From Candidatus Thiodiazotropha sp. (ex Myrtea sp. 'scaly one' KF741663) (GTDB lineage Bacteria; Pseudomonadota; Gammaproteobacteria; Chromatiales; Chromatiaceae), in assembly GCA_025655555.1 (NCBI GenBank), contig JAHXIQ010000005.1, positions 248,001-312,000 on the forward strand: a DNA stretch of 64,000 bases, read 5' to 3'. Shown piece by piece: positions 1 through 56,402 of this stretch. The notes beneath the pieces were generated by a model, which was not told where the DNA came from, ran no database searches, and was given only the letters and a program-made list of their open reading frames with translations. Both the position numbers and the translations under genes were made by a program. Numbering within the stretch: position 1 is the first letter of the stretch; each line of letters begins with the position of its first letter.

Positions 1-451
1 CAGTTGCTCAACTGGAGGAGTCCATATACGCCATACATTTTTTAACAAAACCTCTATATAACACTTTAAATGACTTATAATCAACAAGTTAGCTTCCTCC
101 TGCCTCGTTATGATTCACAGAAAGTCGTGACAGAGGCAAACTGTGCATTATTAGGGGTAACTAATGGGGTTATCCTAAGTAGTTGGTGGCGTTCAGTGAG
201 TATATCTGCTTTCAGGGTACGGCTCGTTTTCACCCAGATGACTCGTTCGGTCCGAGATTGTAGAACAACAGACACTGTATAGAGCTTGTACAGTTACCCG
301 CTATCGGTCTCAAAGCGGTCATAGGGTGTCAAATTGCAGAAATAAAATAGTAGACATATTTCCCAAAAAGCTATAAAAATCGCTGGCCAACGGCTAGATC
401 AAATATTGAGGCAACCGTCGGCTTCTGTGAGTTTAACTATTTCAGGAGTTT
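1..451. other. intergenic / unassigned left edge
   Basis: No gene is recognised. Short open frames here lack a ribosome site and resemble nothing known. The promoter of the downstream four-gene operon should lie in the last 150 bases, but no clear -35/-10 pair stands out. The stretch may hold the end of a gene lying left of the window. Confidence 0.4.
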
Positions 452-454
452 ATG

Positions 455-2599
455 ATGAAAGTTGCCGTCATTTACAACAGAGAATCTCAAAAAGTTATCA
501 ATCTTTTTGGCCAACCAAATCGCGAAAAATATGGATTGGCTGCCATCAGGCGTATTACAAATTCACTCAAGAAAGGTGGGCATCAAGTTCAGGCTTTTGA
601 AGGTGATAAAGACCTGATCGATAATTTAGAAGAATTCATGCCGCGAACACTAGTCGGTGAACGCCCTGGTATGGCCTTCAATTTGTCATACGGCATTCAA
701 GGACAGGCCCGTTACACCCATGTGCCCGGTATTCTTGAAATGGTTGGTGTGCCTTATGTGGGTTCAGGGCCATTAGCACACTCGCTTGCCCTGGATAAGG
801 TTGTGGCGAAAATGCTGTTCGTTCAAAACGGTGTACCTACGCCAGCCTTTGCGGTTCTTGATGCATCAGGCTTTGAAATGCCGAAACTGGATTTTCCACT
901 TATCGTGAAGCCAAAGAATGAGGCAGTTTCTTTTGGAATTCGTATAGTCAATAGCGAAGAAGAATTACGAGAGGCTTCAGATGTTATTTTCAAGGAATTT
1001 GAACAGCCGGTTTTGGTCGAGCAGTTTGTAGAAGGAAGGGAAATCAATATTGGTCTGCTGGGCAACGGTTCAACGCTCGAAACTTTCCAGCCCGCTGAAC
1101 TGACTTTTGGAGAATGCGGTCCACAAATATATACCGAAGAAGATAAACGCCGTACTTCAGGGCGTGAAGTTGGTGTGGTCTGTCCCGCAAATCTGGATGC
1201 TGAGATAGCCAGCAAAGCGCAAGAAATTGCCCGTAAGGCCTTTATTGTATTGGGGTGCTATGACTGTGCACGCGTTGATATCCGCATGGACAAAGATGGA
1301 AATCTGTATGTGCTTGAGGTGAATAGTCTTCCAAGCCTGGGTGAACATGGTTCATACGTAGCAGCCGCAGATGCAATGGGACTGAATTTTGCTGCATTGG
1401 TCAACCGTCTTGTTGAAGTTGCGTCTTCCCGTTACTTTGGTACGCCTAATCCACCGGAACTGGTTAAGGCGAGGAAAACTCCGGAAGAAAAGGTTTTCGC
1501 GTATTTAACTGAACGTCGTGATCAGTTGGAAAAACGTATTGAACAATGGGTTGGTATATCCAGTCATAGCAATGATGTAGTAGGGATTCGCCAAGCTGCC
1601 AGACAAGTCACGAATATGATGAAAGAGATGGGGCTGCAATTAAACGAACCCCTGACAGATTCGCCACATATTTGGACATGGGAAACCGATAAAGGGCTTA
1701 AAAACGGAACACTGATTATTTGCCATGTTGATGTGCCCTATAACTCTTCCATGGGTGGTGAGCATTTTCATCGTGACCCCGAGTGGCTGTATGGTGAAGG
1801 CATCGGAGCTTCCAGAGCGCCGCTGGTACAATTGGAGTTTGCTTTACGGGCATTGCAGCGTGCAAGAAAACTGAAAATGGTCCCTTTGGGGGTAATGGTT
1901 TATGCTGATGAAGGACGTGACTGTGATGAAAGTGCAGAATTTATTACCAAGGCCACTGCTGAAGCCAAGGAAGTGCTTGTATTAAGACCTGGGAATATTA
2001 ATGACACCGTTGTAACCGGACGCAGAGGACAGCGTCGATACAAAGCCTATTTCCAGGGAAAGCCAAGAAAATTGGGGCAAGCTGAAAAACAGCCTGAGGT
2101 TATGCTAAAAGCTGTAAGTGCGTTAGAAGATATTTCCCAACTATCAAACAGGAAGGAAAGACTGGCGGTCTCTGCAGTAGATATACAGGCAGAAGCATAC
2201 CCTCGATTGTTGCCGCATCGGGTTACCGCAACTATACAGGCGTCTTTCCCTAATGGCAGGGCGGCCGATCAGCTTGAACAAAAAATTACAGATCGGTTAA
2301 AGCAAACGAAAGCCGAGCTTGCTCTCCTTTCTGACAGGCGTTCGATGCCCACTCGAAAAATCAATAATACTTTGCTCAAAAGACTCAAAGAACAAGCTGA
2401 AAACTGGGATATACCGATTAATACAGATACCAGTCTGTGGCCATCAGTTGCTGGACTGGTACCTCCTCAAGTCCCCGTAGTCTGTGGTATGGGGCCTATG
2501 GCGCAAGGGCTTTATACGGGTCAGGAAGCTGTATCAAGGATTAGCCTGGTACAACGTACACTATTATTGGCTGAGTATTTGTTATCTCAATCAAACTAG
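455..2599 (+). CDS. D-Ala-D-Ala ligase-like ATP-grasp protein fused to degenerate M20 peptidase-like domain
   Basis: Two-domain protein of about 714 residues. Residues 1-330 are an ATP-grasp ligase of the D-Ala-D-Ala ligase type: PYVGSG near 101, the DK pair near 115, IVKPKNEAVSFG near 151, the acidic RVDIR near 275 and LEVNS near 288 (Mg/ATP ligands). Residues 345-714 look like an M20 metallopeptidase: HVD near 425 matches the HxD ligand motif. The bridging Asp (GEGIGASRAPL), the second Glu of the EE pair (ADEGRD) and the late His (GPMAQGLYTGQE) all appear replaced, so this half is probably catalytically dead or repurposed. ATG at 455 is preferred over 452 because AGGAG lies at 444-448. It is the first gene of a polyamine operon. 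A ligase joining an amino acid or peptide to agmatine, putrescine or arginine is inferred, not shown. The fold call is strong and the substrate is unknown. Confidence 0.8.
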   Translation: MKVAVIYNRESQKVINLFGQPNREKYGLAAIRRITNSLKKGGHQVQAFEGDKDLIDNLEEFMPRTLVGERPGMAFNLSYGIQGQARYTHVPGILEMVGVPYVGSGPLAHSLALDKVVAKMLFVQNGVPTPAFAVLDASGFEMPKLDFPLIVKPKNEAVSFGIRIVNSEEELREASDVIFKEFEQPVLVEQFVEGREINIGLLGNGSTLETFQPAELTFGECGPQIYTEEDKRRTSGREVGVVCPANLDAEIASKAQEIARKAFIVLGCYDCARVDIRMDKDGNLYVLEVNSLPSLGEHGSYVAAADAMGLNFAALVNRLVEVASSRYFGTPNPPELVKARKTPEEKVFAYLTERRDQLEKRIEQWVGISSHSNDVVGIRQAARQVTNMMKEMGLQLNEPLTDSPHIWTWETDKGLKNGTLIICHVDVPYNSSMGGEHFHRDPEWLYGEGIGASRAPLVQLEFALRALQRARKLKMVPLGVMVYADEGRDCDESAEFITKATAEAKEVLVLRPGNINDTVVTGRRGQRRYKAYFQGKPRKLGQAEKQPEVMLKAVSALEDISQLSNRKERLAVSAVDIQAEAYPRLLPHRVTATIQASFPNGRAADQLEQKITDRLKQTKAELALLSDRRSMPTRKINNTLLKRLKEQAENWDIPINTDTSLWPSVAGLVPPQVPVVCGMGPMAQGLYTGQEAVSRISLVQRTLLLAEYLLSQSN

Positions 2600-2608
2600 G
2601 AAATATTG

Positions 2609-3190
2609 ATGTTATTGATTATTGATAACCAGAGCCAATATCTGCGCCAGTTTAAACGGCACTATCTGGATGACCTGGATATACCCCATTTGATTGTTGA
2701 ACATAATGAGCATATCGATTTTTCAAGATTGCCCGAAATCAGTGGGCTTATTATTTCTGGAGGCAAGGGCAATCCATACGAACCGCTCAATCTCACTGCA
2801 AACTATGTCGCCTTGATGAATCTGAATGTTCCAACAATCGGCTTCTGCCTGGGGCATGAGATTATCGGCGTAGCCTGGCAGGCAAAAGTAAAACGGCTGG
2901 TTGACTATCAAAGCAAAAAAGAGCGGATCTTAATCGATGCTCCTGAAGATCCGATATTTGATGGATTGGGTAAACATGAATTCATGATTCAGAAAAAGCA
3001 TCGTTATCATTTGCCTTCATTACCAAAAGACTTTGTGAAGCTGGCACATTCAGCAGTTTGTAATGTTGAAATTATTCGCCACAAAGACAAGCCAATCTAC
3101 GGTTTTCAAGGGCATCCGGAAGTTTCTGGAATCGATGGCCTGAAAATCATGAGCAATTTTATCAGGCTGTGTGGTCTGGAAATAAAGTGA
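2609..3190 (+). CDS. class I glutamine amidotransferase-like protein (GATase1/C26)
   Basis: Protein of 193 residues with the class I GATase fold, closest in feel to the stand-alone GMP synthase glutaminase subunit. The SGGKGNPYEP oxyanion strand is near 50. The nucleophile elbow GFCLGHE has Cys near 80, with His in place of the usual Gln/Glu after the glycine. The triad ends with GHPEVSG (His about 169, Glu about 171). It could release ammonia from glutamine or hydrolyse a gamma-glutamyl conjugate, as PuuD does for gamma-glutamyl-GABA in the same superfamily. No synthetase partner of GuaA type is adjacent, so a GMP synthase role is unlikely. The ATG at 2609 follows AGGAAAT. It sits 9 bases after the ATP-grasp gene and overlaps the next gene by 4 bases, so all are probably co-translated. 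Confidence 0.75.
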   Translation: MLLIIDNQSQYLRQFKRHYLDDLDIPHLIVEHNEHIDFSRLPEISGLIISGGKGNPYEPLNLTANYVALMNLNVPTIGFCLGHEIIGVAWQAKVKRLVDYQSKKERILIDAPEDPIFDGLGKHEFMIQKKHRYHLPSLPKDFVKLAHSAVCNVEIIRHKDKPIYGFQGHPEVSGIDGLKIMSNFIRLCGLEIK

Positions 3191-6028: not shown

Positions 6029-7174
6029 CTAGCCCAGGCGGCTACGGTAATCCTCATAGCCAAACTGGCGTTTTACTTCAACGTGGCCATCAGCATATTG
6101 GACGGCAAGAGCAGGATGTTGCACACCATTGAACATGGTGGTCTTGACCATGGTGTAGTGAATCATGTCTTCAAAAATCAGCTGGTCGCCAACTTTCAGC
6201 GGCTTGTCAAAAGCATATTTACCAATTACATCACCGGCCAGACAGGTCAAGCCTCCAAGCATATAGGTGTGTGGCTTTGAGCCAGGCAAACCCGCGTTTC
6301 GCATATCAGGACGATAAGGCATTTCCAGGACATCCGGCATGTGCGCTGTTGCCGACGTATCCAATATGGCGATATCCATGCCACCACGTTTAACCAGATC
6401 CAGCACAGTGGAAACCAGTGCACCAGTCTGCCAGGCTACCGCTCCTCCCGGCTCCAGCACTACATCAAGATACGGATGACGCTGGTGAAATCCGCTTAGT
6501 GCATTCACAAGCAGATCTATGTCATAGCCTTTGCGTGTCATTAAATGACCGCCACCAAAGTTGACCCATTGGAGGCCGTCAAGCAAATGACCAAATTTAT
6601 CTTCAACAGCAGCAATTAATCTTTCTGATGACTCAGCATCATTTTCACACAATGCATGTACATGAAGTCCTTCGATACCTTCTGGCAAGGTATCCAGCTC
6701 TTCGCGCGGGATACCGAGACGGGATTGAGGAAATGCCGGGTTATACAACGCTGTTTCAACCTCGTTGACCCCGGGGTTAACACGCAGACCTGACGAGACA
6801 CCGGCCTTGGCCGATCTTGTCGAAAACTTCTGCCACTGGCTTAAAGAGTTAAATGAGATACGGTCAGACAATGTAAGCAGAGCACCAAACTCTGCGTCAG
6901 TATAAGCAGGTGCATAGGTATGCACATGGCCACCGAACTCTTCCTTGGCAAGCCGTGCTTCATTCAATGAACTGGCTGAACAGCCGGACAGGTATTCAGA
7001 CACAATAGGAAATACAGACCAGTTGGCAAAACCTTTAAGCGCGAGAATCACTGTAACTCCCGCACGCTGTTCCACCTGCTGTATCAGTTCAAGGTTTTTC
7101 CTGAGCAAATTCTCTTCAATCAAAAAGCACGGCGATGGCAGTTGTTTTGGCTTGGCTTTCATGTTGCCACTCAT
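6029..7174 (-). CDS. nspC: carboxynorspermidine/carboxyspermidine decarboxylase
   Basis: PLP-dependent decarboxylase of 381 residues, fold III, the last enzyme of the alternative spermidine route. It removes CO2 from carboxyspermidine or carboxynorspermidine. Family hallmarks are the LALKGFANWSVFP PLP-lysine strand, GLHVHALCEN, WVNFGGGHLMT and the C-terminal GGLTCLAGDVIGKYAFD block with the catalytic cysteine region. The ATG overlaps the upstream dehydrogenase stop as ATGA, so the two are translationally coupled. In organisms without speD/speE this pair makes spermidine from putrescine and aspartate semialdehyde. The upstream SpeA/agmatinase genes supply putrescine, which favours carboxyspermidine over the norspermidine version. 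Confidence 0.93.
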   Translation of the reverse strand: MSGNMKAKPKQLPSPCFLIEENLLRKNLELIQQVEQRAGVTVILALKGFANWSVFPIVSEYLSGCSASSLNEARLAKEEFGGHVHTYAPAYTDAEFGALLTLSDRISFNSLSQWQKFSTRSAKAGVSSGLRVNPGVNEVETALYNPAFPQSRLGIPREELDTLPEGIEGLHVHALCENDAESSERLIAAVEDKFGHLLDGLQWVNFGGGHLMTRKGYDIDLLVNALSGFHQRHPYLDVVLEPGGAVAWQTGALVSTVLDLVKRGGMDIAILDTSATAHMPDVLEMPYRPDMRNAGLPGSKPHTYMLGGLTCLAGDVIGKYAFDKPLKVGDQLIFEDMIHYTMVKTTMFNGVQHPALAVQYADGHVEVKRQFGYEDYRSRLG

Positions 7175-8379
7175 GCTTCTGGCAAGGTATCCACGTCAAT
7201 ATCACATTCAATATCGTGCCAGGGCAAACCATAGCGATTCAGATCACCCATAAACGGATCGGGATCAAATTGCTCCATGTTCCACACGCCCGACTGTTTC
7301 CATTTCCCTTCCAGCATCATCTTGGCACCGATCATAGCCGGTACGCCAGTGGTATAGGAAACACCCTGTGCCTGCGTTTCGCGGTAACAGGCTTCATGGT
7401 CACTGACATTATAGATGTAACGCGAAACCGGTTTGCCGCCTTTGCTGCCTTTTATGAGACAGCCGATATTGGTCTTGCCCTTGGTACGTGGTCCCAGTGA
7501 AGCCGGGTCAGGTAACAATGCCTTGAGGAATTGCAGCGGCACAATCTGCTGGCCGTTGAATTCAATCGGTTCGATTCCATCAAGACCGATATTCTGTATG
7601 ACTTCAAGATGCTTGAGATAACTCTCACCGAAGGTCATCCAGAAGCGCATACGCTGGATACCAGGAATATGCTTGGTGAGTGATTCCATTTCCTCGTGAT
7701 AGAGCAGGAACATCTTGCGTGGACCGATTTCCGGAAAGTTAAATACACGAGAGAGCTCCATTGGTTGGGTTTCCACCCAGTCACCGTTCTGCCAGTAACG
7801 ACCATTGGCAGTCACTTCACGGATATTGATTTCAGGATTGAAATTGGTCGCAAACGGATAGCCGTGATCACCCGCATTACAGTCCATAATGTCTACGGTA
7901 TCAATCTTGTCGAAATGATGCTTGAGCGCATAAGCGATATAGACATTAGTGACACCGGGATCAAAACCAGAACCCAGCAATGCCGTTAGACCGACATCTT
8001 TGAATTTATCATGATAAGCCCACTGCCACTTGTATTCAAACTTGGCTTCATCAAGCGGTTCGTAATTGGCGGTATCCAGATAATCAATACCTGTTTCAAG
8101 GCAGGCATCCATAATGGTCAGATCCTGGTACGGCAGTGCAACATTGATCACCATTTTGGGCTGAACCTTGTTAATCAGTTCAACCAGTTCAGGAACTGAA
8201 TCAGCATCAACTCGTGCCGTCTTCACCTTGTCTCCACCAATTTCTGCGGCTATCTGATCGCACTTTGATAATGTCCGGCTTGCCAGCCATATGTCAGAAA
8301 AAACTTCAGGAAGTTGAGCGCATTTGTGTGTAACAACACGCCCTACGCCACCGGCACCGATAATCAGTACTCTGCTCAT
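7171..8379 (-). CDS. carboxynorspermidine/carboxyspermidine dehydrogenase (saccharopine dehydrogenase family)
   Basis: NADPH-dependent reductive condensation enzyme of 402 residues that joins aspartate semialdehyde to putrescine (or diaminopropane) to give carboxyspermidine (or carboxynorspermidine). A Rossmann motif VLIIGAGGVGRVV begins the protein. TALLGSGFDPGVTNVYIAYALKHHF and DCNAGDHGYP are typical of this saccharopine-dehydrogenase-like branch. The start is set at the ATG at 8379 (MSRVLIIG), with a GAGATGA ribosome-site-like stretch just upstream; longer in-frame versions to 8445 add a non-conserved tail. It lies first in the two-gene operon with nspC, convergent with speA. No speE or speD is seen in the window, consistent with this being the organism's spermidine route. 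Confidence 0.9.
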   Translation of the reverse strand: MSRVLIIGAGGVGRVVTHKCAQLPEVFSDIWLASRTLSKCDQIAAEIGGDKVKTARVDADSVPELVELINKVQPKMVINVALPYQDLTIMDACLETGIDYLDTANYEPLDEAKFEYKWQWAYHDKFKDVGLTALLGSGFDPGVTNVYIAYALKHHFDKIDTVDIMDCNAGDHGYPFATNFNPEINIREVTANGRYWQNGDWVETQPMELSRVFNFPEIGPRKMFLLYHEEMESLTKHIPGIQRMRFWMTFGESYLKHLEVIQNIGLDGIEPIEFNGQQIVPLQFLKALLPDPASLGPRTKGKTNIGCLIKGSKGGKPVSRYIYNVSDHEACYRETQAQGVSYTTGVPAMIGAKMMLEGKWKQSGVWNMEQFDPDPFMGDLNRYGLPWHDIECDIDVDTLPEA

Positions 8380-8477
8380 TTTTGTCATCTCAATAAAGTG
8401 GAAAAACGGAGCATTTTTATCACCAGAATGGCCAAATGTCTCCAATTATTTTTTACCTGTGAAAAACCAAAAAACAT

Positions 8478-50076: not shown

Positions 50077-50152
50077 TGGCTCCCCGGGACAGGCTCGAAC
50101 TGCCGACCTAGTGATTAACAGTCACCCGCTCTACCGACTGAGCTACCGGGGA
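50077..50152 (-). tRNA. tRNA-Asn(GTT)
   Basis: On the minus strand the acceptor TCCCCGG pairs with CCGGGGA, then G and encoded CCA. The D arm is GTAGCTCAGTCGGTAGAGC, the anticodon loop CTGTTAA gives GTT, and the T arm is GGCAGTTCGAGCCTGTC. All stems close. No insertion is seen next to it. Confidence 0.95.
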
Positions 50153-56197: not shown

Positions 56198-56326
56198 ATC
56201 GACTGTGGCATCTTGTGTAGGGGGCTTCGGTGCTCTGTTTACCGTCTATTGGTCAAGACGCCCCAAAAGGAATCGACGAAGGGTTGCAATCGGCAGGGAC
56301 CAGCCTGTATGATTCGCCGTCTTAAA

Positions 56327-56402
<76 letters not shown>

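Follow-up and report, generated by a model that had tools for sequence, protein, structure and literature searches.

What does a peptidase fold do inside a ligase once it has lost the residues with which it would cut? The question is raised by a gene near the start of a 64,000-nucleotide stretch of Candidatus Thiodiazotropha sp. (ex Myrtea sp. 'scaly one' KF741663) (contig JAHXIQ010000005.1, positions 248,001 to 312,000 of the forward strand), referred to below as the window. A sequence-only reading had seen in this gene an ATP-grasp ligase and an M20-like domain in one protein, and the frame, Pfam, profile and fold matches bear this out. As judged from its residues, the M20 half is a pseudo-peptidase without the two-metal site, and the loss persists across all related fusions that we collected. 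The reading frame (452–2599, plus strand) is open for 715 amino acids, and residue numbers follow it throughout. Candidate start codons are the ATGs at 452 and 455, to which the AGGAG at 444–448 leaves spacers of 3 and 6 bases; the start at 455 is likelier because its AGGAG is better spaced. The gene is laid out as follows:

444–448, plus strand: putative ribosome-binding site AGGAG of the fusion gene, a motif found by eye

455–2599, plus strand: ATP-grasp ligase/pseudo-M20 fusion protein, 714 residues from the ATG at 455

455–1447, plus strand: ATP-grasp ligase half, residues 2–332, with the D-Ala-D-Ala-ligase fold; K153, R274, D276, E289 and N291 kept

1484–2596, plus strand: M20A (carboxypeptidase-G2-like) pseudo-peptidase half, residues 345–715

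The comparison rests on 21 fusions: that of the window; L042–L049, from Thiodiazotropha RUGA, a Stewartia symbiont, five Thiohalocapsa and one gammaproteobacterial bin; the partial L050; L058; six from one genus of the window's class; and four further full fusions from the phylum of the L050 genome, which is labelled Planctomycetota. Fusions occur, then, in Pseudomonadota and in the phylum of that genome. They form a few clades, so that the counts below are not independent events; L050 ends inside the gene and was excluded from the ligase tree and from the count of invariant residues.

Three routes (profile, hhalign and predicted structure) identify the second half as a predicted M20A domain of carboxypeptidase-G2-like fold. 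In Pfam, the M20 half of the window protein is matched below threshold only (M20_dimer, 14.9 bits, cut-off 21); Peptidase_M20 (PF01546, cut-off 24.6) is exceeded in two of the three other fusions scanned (L114, 36.7; L055, 44.9), and no M20 match is listed for the third, L116. A single-sequence search of the PDB with this half returned nothing credible (best E-value 0.64). Searched against the PDB, a profile of four orthologues reaches carboxypeptidase G2 at 7.8e-08, and hhalign aligns canonical M20A proteins with the window's clade at a probability of 99.7 (E-value 2.7e-26, 370 columns) and with a second clade of fusions at 99.9. The M20 half was also modelled alone with AlphaFold; the best of five models has a predicted local distance difference test score (pLDDT) of 74.1 and a predicted template-modelling (TM) score of 0.70, the other four reaching 52–65. 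Foldseek ranks carboxypeptidase G2 first for this model (E-value 3.5e-19), which is nonetheless approximate because the TM-scores are ~0.6 and the root-mean-square deviations 7–8 Å.

The metal ligands and pocket residues of carboxypeptidase G2 are numbered here as we take them to stand in that enzyme, and the letters found at those positions agree. On the window protein, H112 maps to H425, D114 to D427, D141 to A453, E175 to E487, E176 to G488, E200 to R512, H229 to K540, R324 to R629, and H385 to Y688. Four of the five metal ligands are gone:

1724–1732, plus strand: H425-x-D427, the HxD motif kept (ligand H112 and D114 of carboxypeptidase G2)

1808–1810, plus strand: A453, replacing the metal-bridging Asp, D141

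1910–1915, plus strand: E487-G488, replacing the Glu-Glu pair (E175 kept, ligand E176 lost)

1985–1987, plus strand: R512, replacing the fourth ligand, E200

2069–2071, plus strand: K540, where carboxypeptidase G2 has the lid His, H229; 20 of 21 fusions have Lys or Arg here

2336–2338, plus strand: R629, at the position of R324; all 20 fusions that cover the site have Arg

2513–2515, plus strand: Y688, replacing the late ligand His, H385

The sequence-only reading had the HxD motif kept and the bridging Asp, second Glu and late His changed to Ala, Gly and Tyr, all of which the mapping confirms; its list of lost ligands named three of the four and overlooked the change of E200 to R512. It also raised the question of whether the substitutions are fixed among homologues, and in the alignment the losses persist, although the replacing letters differ between clades. 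The counterparts of D141, E176 and E200 are each kept in none of the 21 fusions (the E200 site being Arg, Asn or Ser in every one), and a full M20 metal site, searched for in all 21, is found in none. At least three of the five ligands are lost in each, and the closest to intact, L114, has two of five. The late His is lost in 19 of 20 fusions; L114 (L114:8919-11060) is the only one collected with His still at this position. The D114 counterpart is Asp in 21 of 21, that of H112 is His in 15 (Asn-x-Asp replaces HxD in the other six), and at the E175 position 15 fusions have Glu and six have Asp, while the lid His is changed throughout. The second clade has lost the site with different letters (Asn-x-Asp; Arg, or His in one; Ser; Asn or Ser; Gly), and in it His has become Asn and Glu has become Asp in six of six. 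No substitute metal site is conserved in place of the old one: across 20 fusions every His and Cys position of the M20 half varies, and among its acidic residues E360, D427 and D486 alone are invariant. Within the 14 clade-1 and L114–L117 fusions, the invariants of this half include H425, D427, E487, H589 and C678.

Nine canonical M20A proteins used for comparison keep all five ligands, a result that for HxD and Glu-Glu is partly built into the selection, the remaining columns lying outside the filter; the R324 position is Arg in seven of these nine. The set came from 15 loci (L027–L041), 10 of which passed a filter for HxD-type and DE[E/D] motifs before L041, of DapE type, was removed. L039 lies inside the G356 fusion, L027, L032 and L033 fell outside the filter despite having HxD and DEE, and in L035 gene calling took other frames. 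The window protein thus shares with carboxypeptidase G2 and the M20A peptidases, its best solved match by profile and fold, the fold itself, the order of motifs, the Asp of HxD and the counterpart of R324, and differs from them in the losses counted above and in being fused to a ligase. The gene is not a damaged one: orthologues at 85, 79 and 63% identity carry the same letters as the window at the changed metal-ligand sites, and the ratio of nonsynonymous to synonymous substitution rates is low (0.171 for the M20 half, 0.155 for the ligase half, from L044/L045, the one unsaturated pair of four; synonymous sites are saturated in the other three).

The ligase half matches the D-ala D-ala ligase C-terminus of Pfam (PF07478, 134.3 bits, cut-off 24) and has PDB matches from 1.2e-34. 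Its ATP/Mg residues K153, R274, D276, E289 and N291 are invariant in the 11 fusions aligned; L046, with an altered ligase stretch, was excluded from this alignment and from the ligase tree. That stretch (L046:376-1380, in a Thiohalocapsa metagenome-assembled genome) is unlike its relatives and probably a sequence error. The sequence-only reading had described a D-Ala-D-Ala ligase-type half, which stands for the fold and the ATP/Mg residues and falls for membership of that family. With D-Ala-D-Ala ligases (Ddl; NF002378, TIGR01205) this half shares the ATP-grasp fold, the ATP/Mg residues, and the Glu and Lys counterparts of E15 and K215 of E. coli DdlB. It differs in scoring below the NCBIfam cut-off, as it does for all 25 ligase families listed of the 58 matched (best 174.2 of 243 bits), and in its pocket: Val stands at the Ser150 position in the fusions shown, the Tyr216 counterpart is variable, and the HGxxGED loop is replaced. 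The DdlB residue numbers and roles are those we assume for E15, Ser150, Lys215 and Tyr216, with Glu-Ser-Tyr presumably forming the pocket for the first amino acid. In the ligase tree, the family (25 rows) stands apart from seven Ddl proteins (100/99). Identity as a D-Ala-D-Ala ligase was rejected on the score, the pocket Ser and Tyr, and the tree; a Ddl-like match lies elsewhere in the window's genome (C1:488937-489689). From its sequence, the ligase half is probably active with a substrate pair other than that of Ddl. RimK and the L-amino-acid ligases belong to the same ATP-grasp superfamily and have the general chemistry expected of this half, and they form a different subfamily without a pseudo-M20 domain.

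The family is rare. A ligase-half search at an E-value of 1e-42 finds it in 4 of 398 genomes of the window's phylum, as a fusion in the window's genome and G356 and as an unfused ligase in G507 and G656, and in 7 of 119 genomes in the phylum of G860, namely four full fusions, the truncated L050, a 7TM form (L118), and G940, which has two matches (37–39%) and no M20 domain. The whole fusion is found in 6 of 81 genomes in the family of G356, and among 56 relatives full fusions are present in the window's genome, G010, G007 and G023. An M20-half profile matches in 17 of 369 class genomes; three of these are fusions (G000, G138 and G356), 13 have ordinary M20 motifs, and the remaining one is L035. 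Viral contigs, examined as a source of canonical M20 rows, gave 27 pattern matches, none of them a relative. Phage records with a match number 23, all below 60% identity and none covering 80% of the query, and the eight listed cover the ligase half only.

Neighbours of the 21 fusions were counted by tblastn, with family names taken from Pfam on samples. A near-complete gene for gamma-glutamyltransferase (GGT) lies directly downstream in 17 of the 21, and a gene resembling N-formylglutamate amidohydrolase (FGase-like) comes next after it in 16. L058 has fragments of both, L050 is cut off, and in the window and L042 a class-I glutamine amidotransferase takes the place of GGT and FGase. GGT and FGase work on glutamyl or N-acylglutamyl groups; class-I amidotransferases use glutamine, and the target of carboxypeptidase G2 is a C-terminal glutamate. 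The gene of the window is:

2609–3190, plus strand: class-I glutamine amidotransferase, next gene after the fusion (PF00117, 82.7 bits, cut-off 22.8; GFCLGHE and GHPE motifs by eye)

Its L042 homologue (77% identity) likewise adjoins the fusion in the sister genome, and among solved structures the window's amidotransferase comes closest to GMP synthase subunit A and to other amidotransferases bound to synthases. A search of 274 class genomes at 1e-30 found the window's own copy only; plasmid matches, 28–32% identical in the 12 of 260 records listed, are mostly named as parts of aminodeoxychorismate or anthranilate synthase. The arrangement with an amidotransferase looks derived because the window and L042 are sisters in the ligase tree (96/86), with L043 next.

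The GGTs linked to fusions keep the Thr-(Thr/Ser)-His nucleophile motif in nine of nine rows of the GGT tree, a set selected without requiring this motif. Examined in 11 of the 17 near-complete copies and in a rhizobial relative, their N-termini have no hydrophobic segment (15-residue Kyte-Doolittle means peak at 0.61 or less, versus at least 1.65 in nine others), which suggests that they are of cytosol type. At an E-value of 1e-95, relatives of the linked GGTs occur in 2 of 378 phylum genomes, the carrier G356 (linked and unlinked copies) and G464 (unlinked). No ligase is present within the 14-kb stretches read around the unlinked copies, L102 in G464 and L103 in G356. FGase-like genes are found in the fusion-and-GGT genomes G007, G023, G356 and G842, and are missing from G000 and G010 and from four relatives that lack the fusion (G001, G003, G009 and G027); G138 has a fragment, and rhizobium-type G507 has five, none linked to the ligase contig. 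In L058 the FGase and GGT fragments overlap in a short stretch past the fusion (L058:204-569), by deletion or assembly error. In two distant genomes, the surroundings of the fusion-GGT-FGase module include genes of the Zn_protease, RimK and AstE families (L043:13512-15934 and L116:19-2142).

Ligases of the same family on rhizobial plasmids (40–46% identity over the ligase half, among 13 records listed) carry no M20 domain and have a 7TM protein instead. In Bradyrhizobium barranii the unfused ligase is preceded by genes for lysine 2,3-aminomutase, GGT and a 7TM_transglut protein, a full set that is not there on the three other rhizobial plasmids read. The B. barranii GGT is 39–44% identical to fusion-linked GGTs, versus 33–36% to signal-bearing ones, and the tree of GGTs places the rhizobial row on a long branch together with L102. 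At L118:7521-9965, an 815-residue protein combines in one chain a 7TM_transglut domain and a ligase of this family, which in B. barranii are separate genes. A distant member of the ligase family (L119:6392-9958) has a lysine-2,3-aminomutase-like match (36%) on the same strand ~2 kb away.

These sequence-level results, comprising the fold, the ligand losses and their persistence, the ligase family, the neighbourhoods and the lack of a conserved polyamine link treated below, lead us to propose that the fusion ligates a peptide or amide containing a glutamyl group, with its pseudo-peptidase half holding the substrate or product, a reading that we regard as evenly balanced between right and wrong. 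The protein would be a cytosolic, non-ribosomal ligase. Because the ATP/Mg residues are kept, the ATP-grasp half is expected to activate a carboxylate as acyl phosphate and join it to an amine. The M20A half would bind, but not hydrolyse, a partner that bears a carboxylate, probably a glutamyl group on the substrate or product, and may hold it via R629 and perhaps K540; a glutamyl group is proposed because the relatives of GGT, FGase, the amidotransferase and carboxypeptidase G2 all handle glutamate or glutamine. The compound would then be completed by the adjacent partner acting on gamma-glutamyl groups, usually a cytosol-type GGT followed by an FGase-like enzyme, and the tree suggests that in the window's lineage a class-I glutamine amidotransferase replaced both. 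A broader picture is more tentative, and we lean somewhat against it as a whole: a pathway would use a glutamyl group as a handle behind which a peptide or amide is built, the dead carboxypeptidase would hold the glutamyl end, and GGT with the FGase-like enzyme, or the amidotransferase, would remove or transfer the handle, in sulfur-oxidising symbionts, purple sulfur bacteria (Thiohalocapsa), another gammaproteobacterial genus and the phylum of L050.

Several observations weigh against the proposal. That the M20 domain binds the substrate or product of the ligase had been suggested in the sequence-only reading, and the constant R324 counterpart is the one specific support for it; N275 and R288, which we take to be further glutamate-binding residues of carboxypeptidase G2, have counterparts in only 1 and 2 of 20 fusions, which weakens the case for a glutamate-specific or unchanged glutamate pocket. 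The Arg itself points to inheritance maintained and not to a new gain, since it is common in ordinary M20A proteins. The unfused relatives on rhizobial plasmids indicate that ligation in itself does not require the M20 domain, and the model of the full-length fusion (pLDDT 48.5) is too poor to give the arrangement of the two halves. The partner enzymes are not uniform either: neither GGT nor FGase lies beside the window's fusion, L072 has a GGT with no adjacent FGase (its genome, G842, has one elsewhere), and the fusion-linked GGTs are not an exclusive clade, the unlinked L102 and L103 falling in the same 12-row group.

Among other explanations, the one closest at hand in the window is a polyamine-conjugating ligase with agmatine, putrescine or arginine as acceptor, for the amidotransferase gene overlaps the agmatinase frame, SpeA follows, and the fusion had been read as part of a polyamine operon. 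We rejected that membership and consider such a ligase most improbable. SpeA was found in seven of nine genomes searched, the window's included, and at the SpeA loci read in five other congeners (G001, G002, G003, G007 and G010) agmatinase adjoins SpeA with no fusion, amidotransferase, NspC or carboxynorspermidine synthase, tblastn for the fusion and the amidotransferase at these loci being negative. In the fusion-bearing G007 and G010 the fusion sits on another contig than the agmatinase-SpeA pair; the combined neighbourhood is seen in the window only, and the recurrent partners of the fusion are glutamyl-handling enzymes. An IS110/IS116-type transposase (L095:10244-11266; G000 C5:246743-247765) lies outside the window, ~690 bases upstream of the fusion, and fits an insertion of the fusion beside an older agmatinase-SpeA pair. 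Also in the window, 6029–8445 on the minus strand holds a carboxynorspermidine decarboxylase above its cut-off and a carboxynorspermidine-synthase-like saccharopine dehydrogenase at 424 of 800 bits (NCBIfam). The amidotransferase could instead make the fusion an ammonia-using amide synthase of the kind of carbamoyl-phosphate synthetase, in which the amidotransferase, or GGT acting as a glutaminase, frees ammonia from glutamine and the ligase makes a terminal amide. The pairing in the window and L042, the synthase-bound solved relatives and the Cys and His-Glu motifs seen by eye all agree with this; yet most fusions have a near-complete GGT in that place, we know of no GGT that channels ammonia, and the FGase-like partner is left unexplained, so that we think this unlikely.

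For the M20 half itself, a purely structural role in dimerisation or stability is an equally unlikely alternative. It would account for the zinc ligands being lost in every collected fusion, and two papers lend it background: non-catalytic homologues in the zinc-peptidase clan have roles in protein-protein contacts (PMC4000134), and M20 enzymes possess a dimerisation domain (PMC4012986). Retention of residues in the pocket has nevertheless been selective, the Asp of HxD and the R324 counterpart being constant and the lid His having become Lys or Arg in all fusions except one. Another, metal-free chemistry, such as acyl transfer by the kept His, Asp and Glu, would draw on H425, D427 and E487, invariant in the 14 clade-1 and L114–L117 fusions; the second clade, with Asn for that His and Asp for that Glu, and the absence over 20 fusions of any invariant His or Cys, with D427 the only one of these three among the invariant acidic residues, make it very improbable.

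The only Rfam matches of the window above gathering score are two tRNA genes, at 50080–50152 (minus strand) and 56326–56399 (plus strand). Among the titles and abstract openings listed in searches of the open-licence PMC literature, none concerns such a fusion or module, and a term search of PMC2922099 gave no match; an earlier mention is possible. Relatives in distant bacteria with the same broken domain, mostly beside glutamate-handling enzymes, suggest an uncharacterised pathway in which the domain holds and does not cut. A hydrolase fold built permanently into a synthetic enzyme as a non-cutting part, and lacking its metal site in both of two divergent clades, offers a clean example of domain reuse, probably for holding. 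The recurrent row of ligase, GGT and FGase points to a metabolite in both marine symbionts and purple sulfur bacteria. With an amidotransferase swapped in for one lineage, comparison of sister species can test the chemistry of the missing step.

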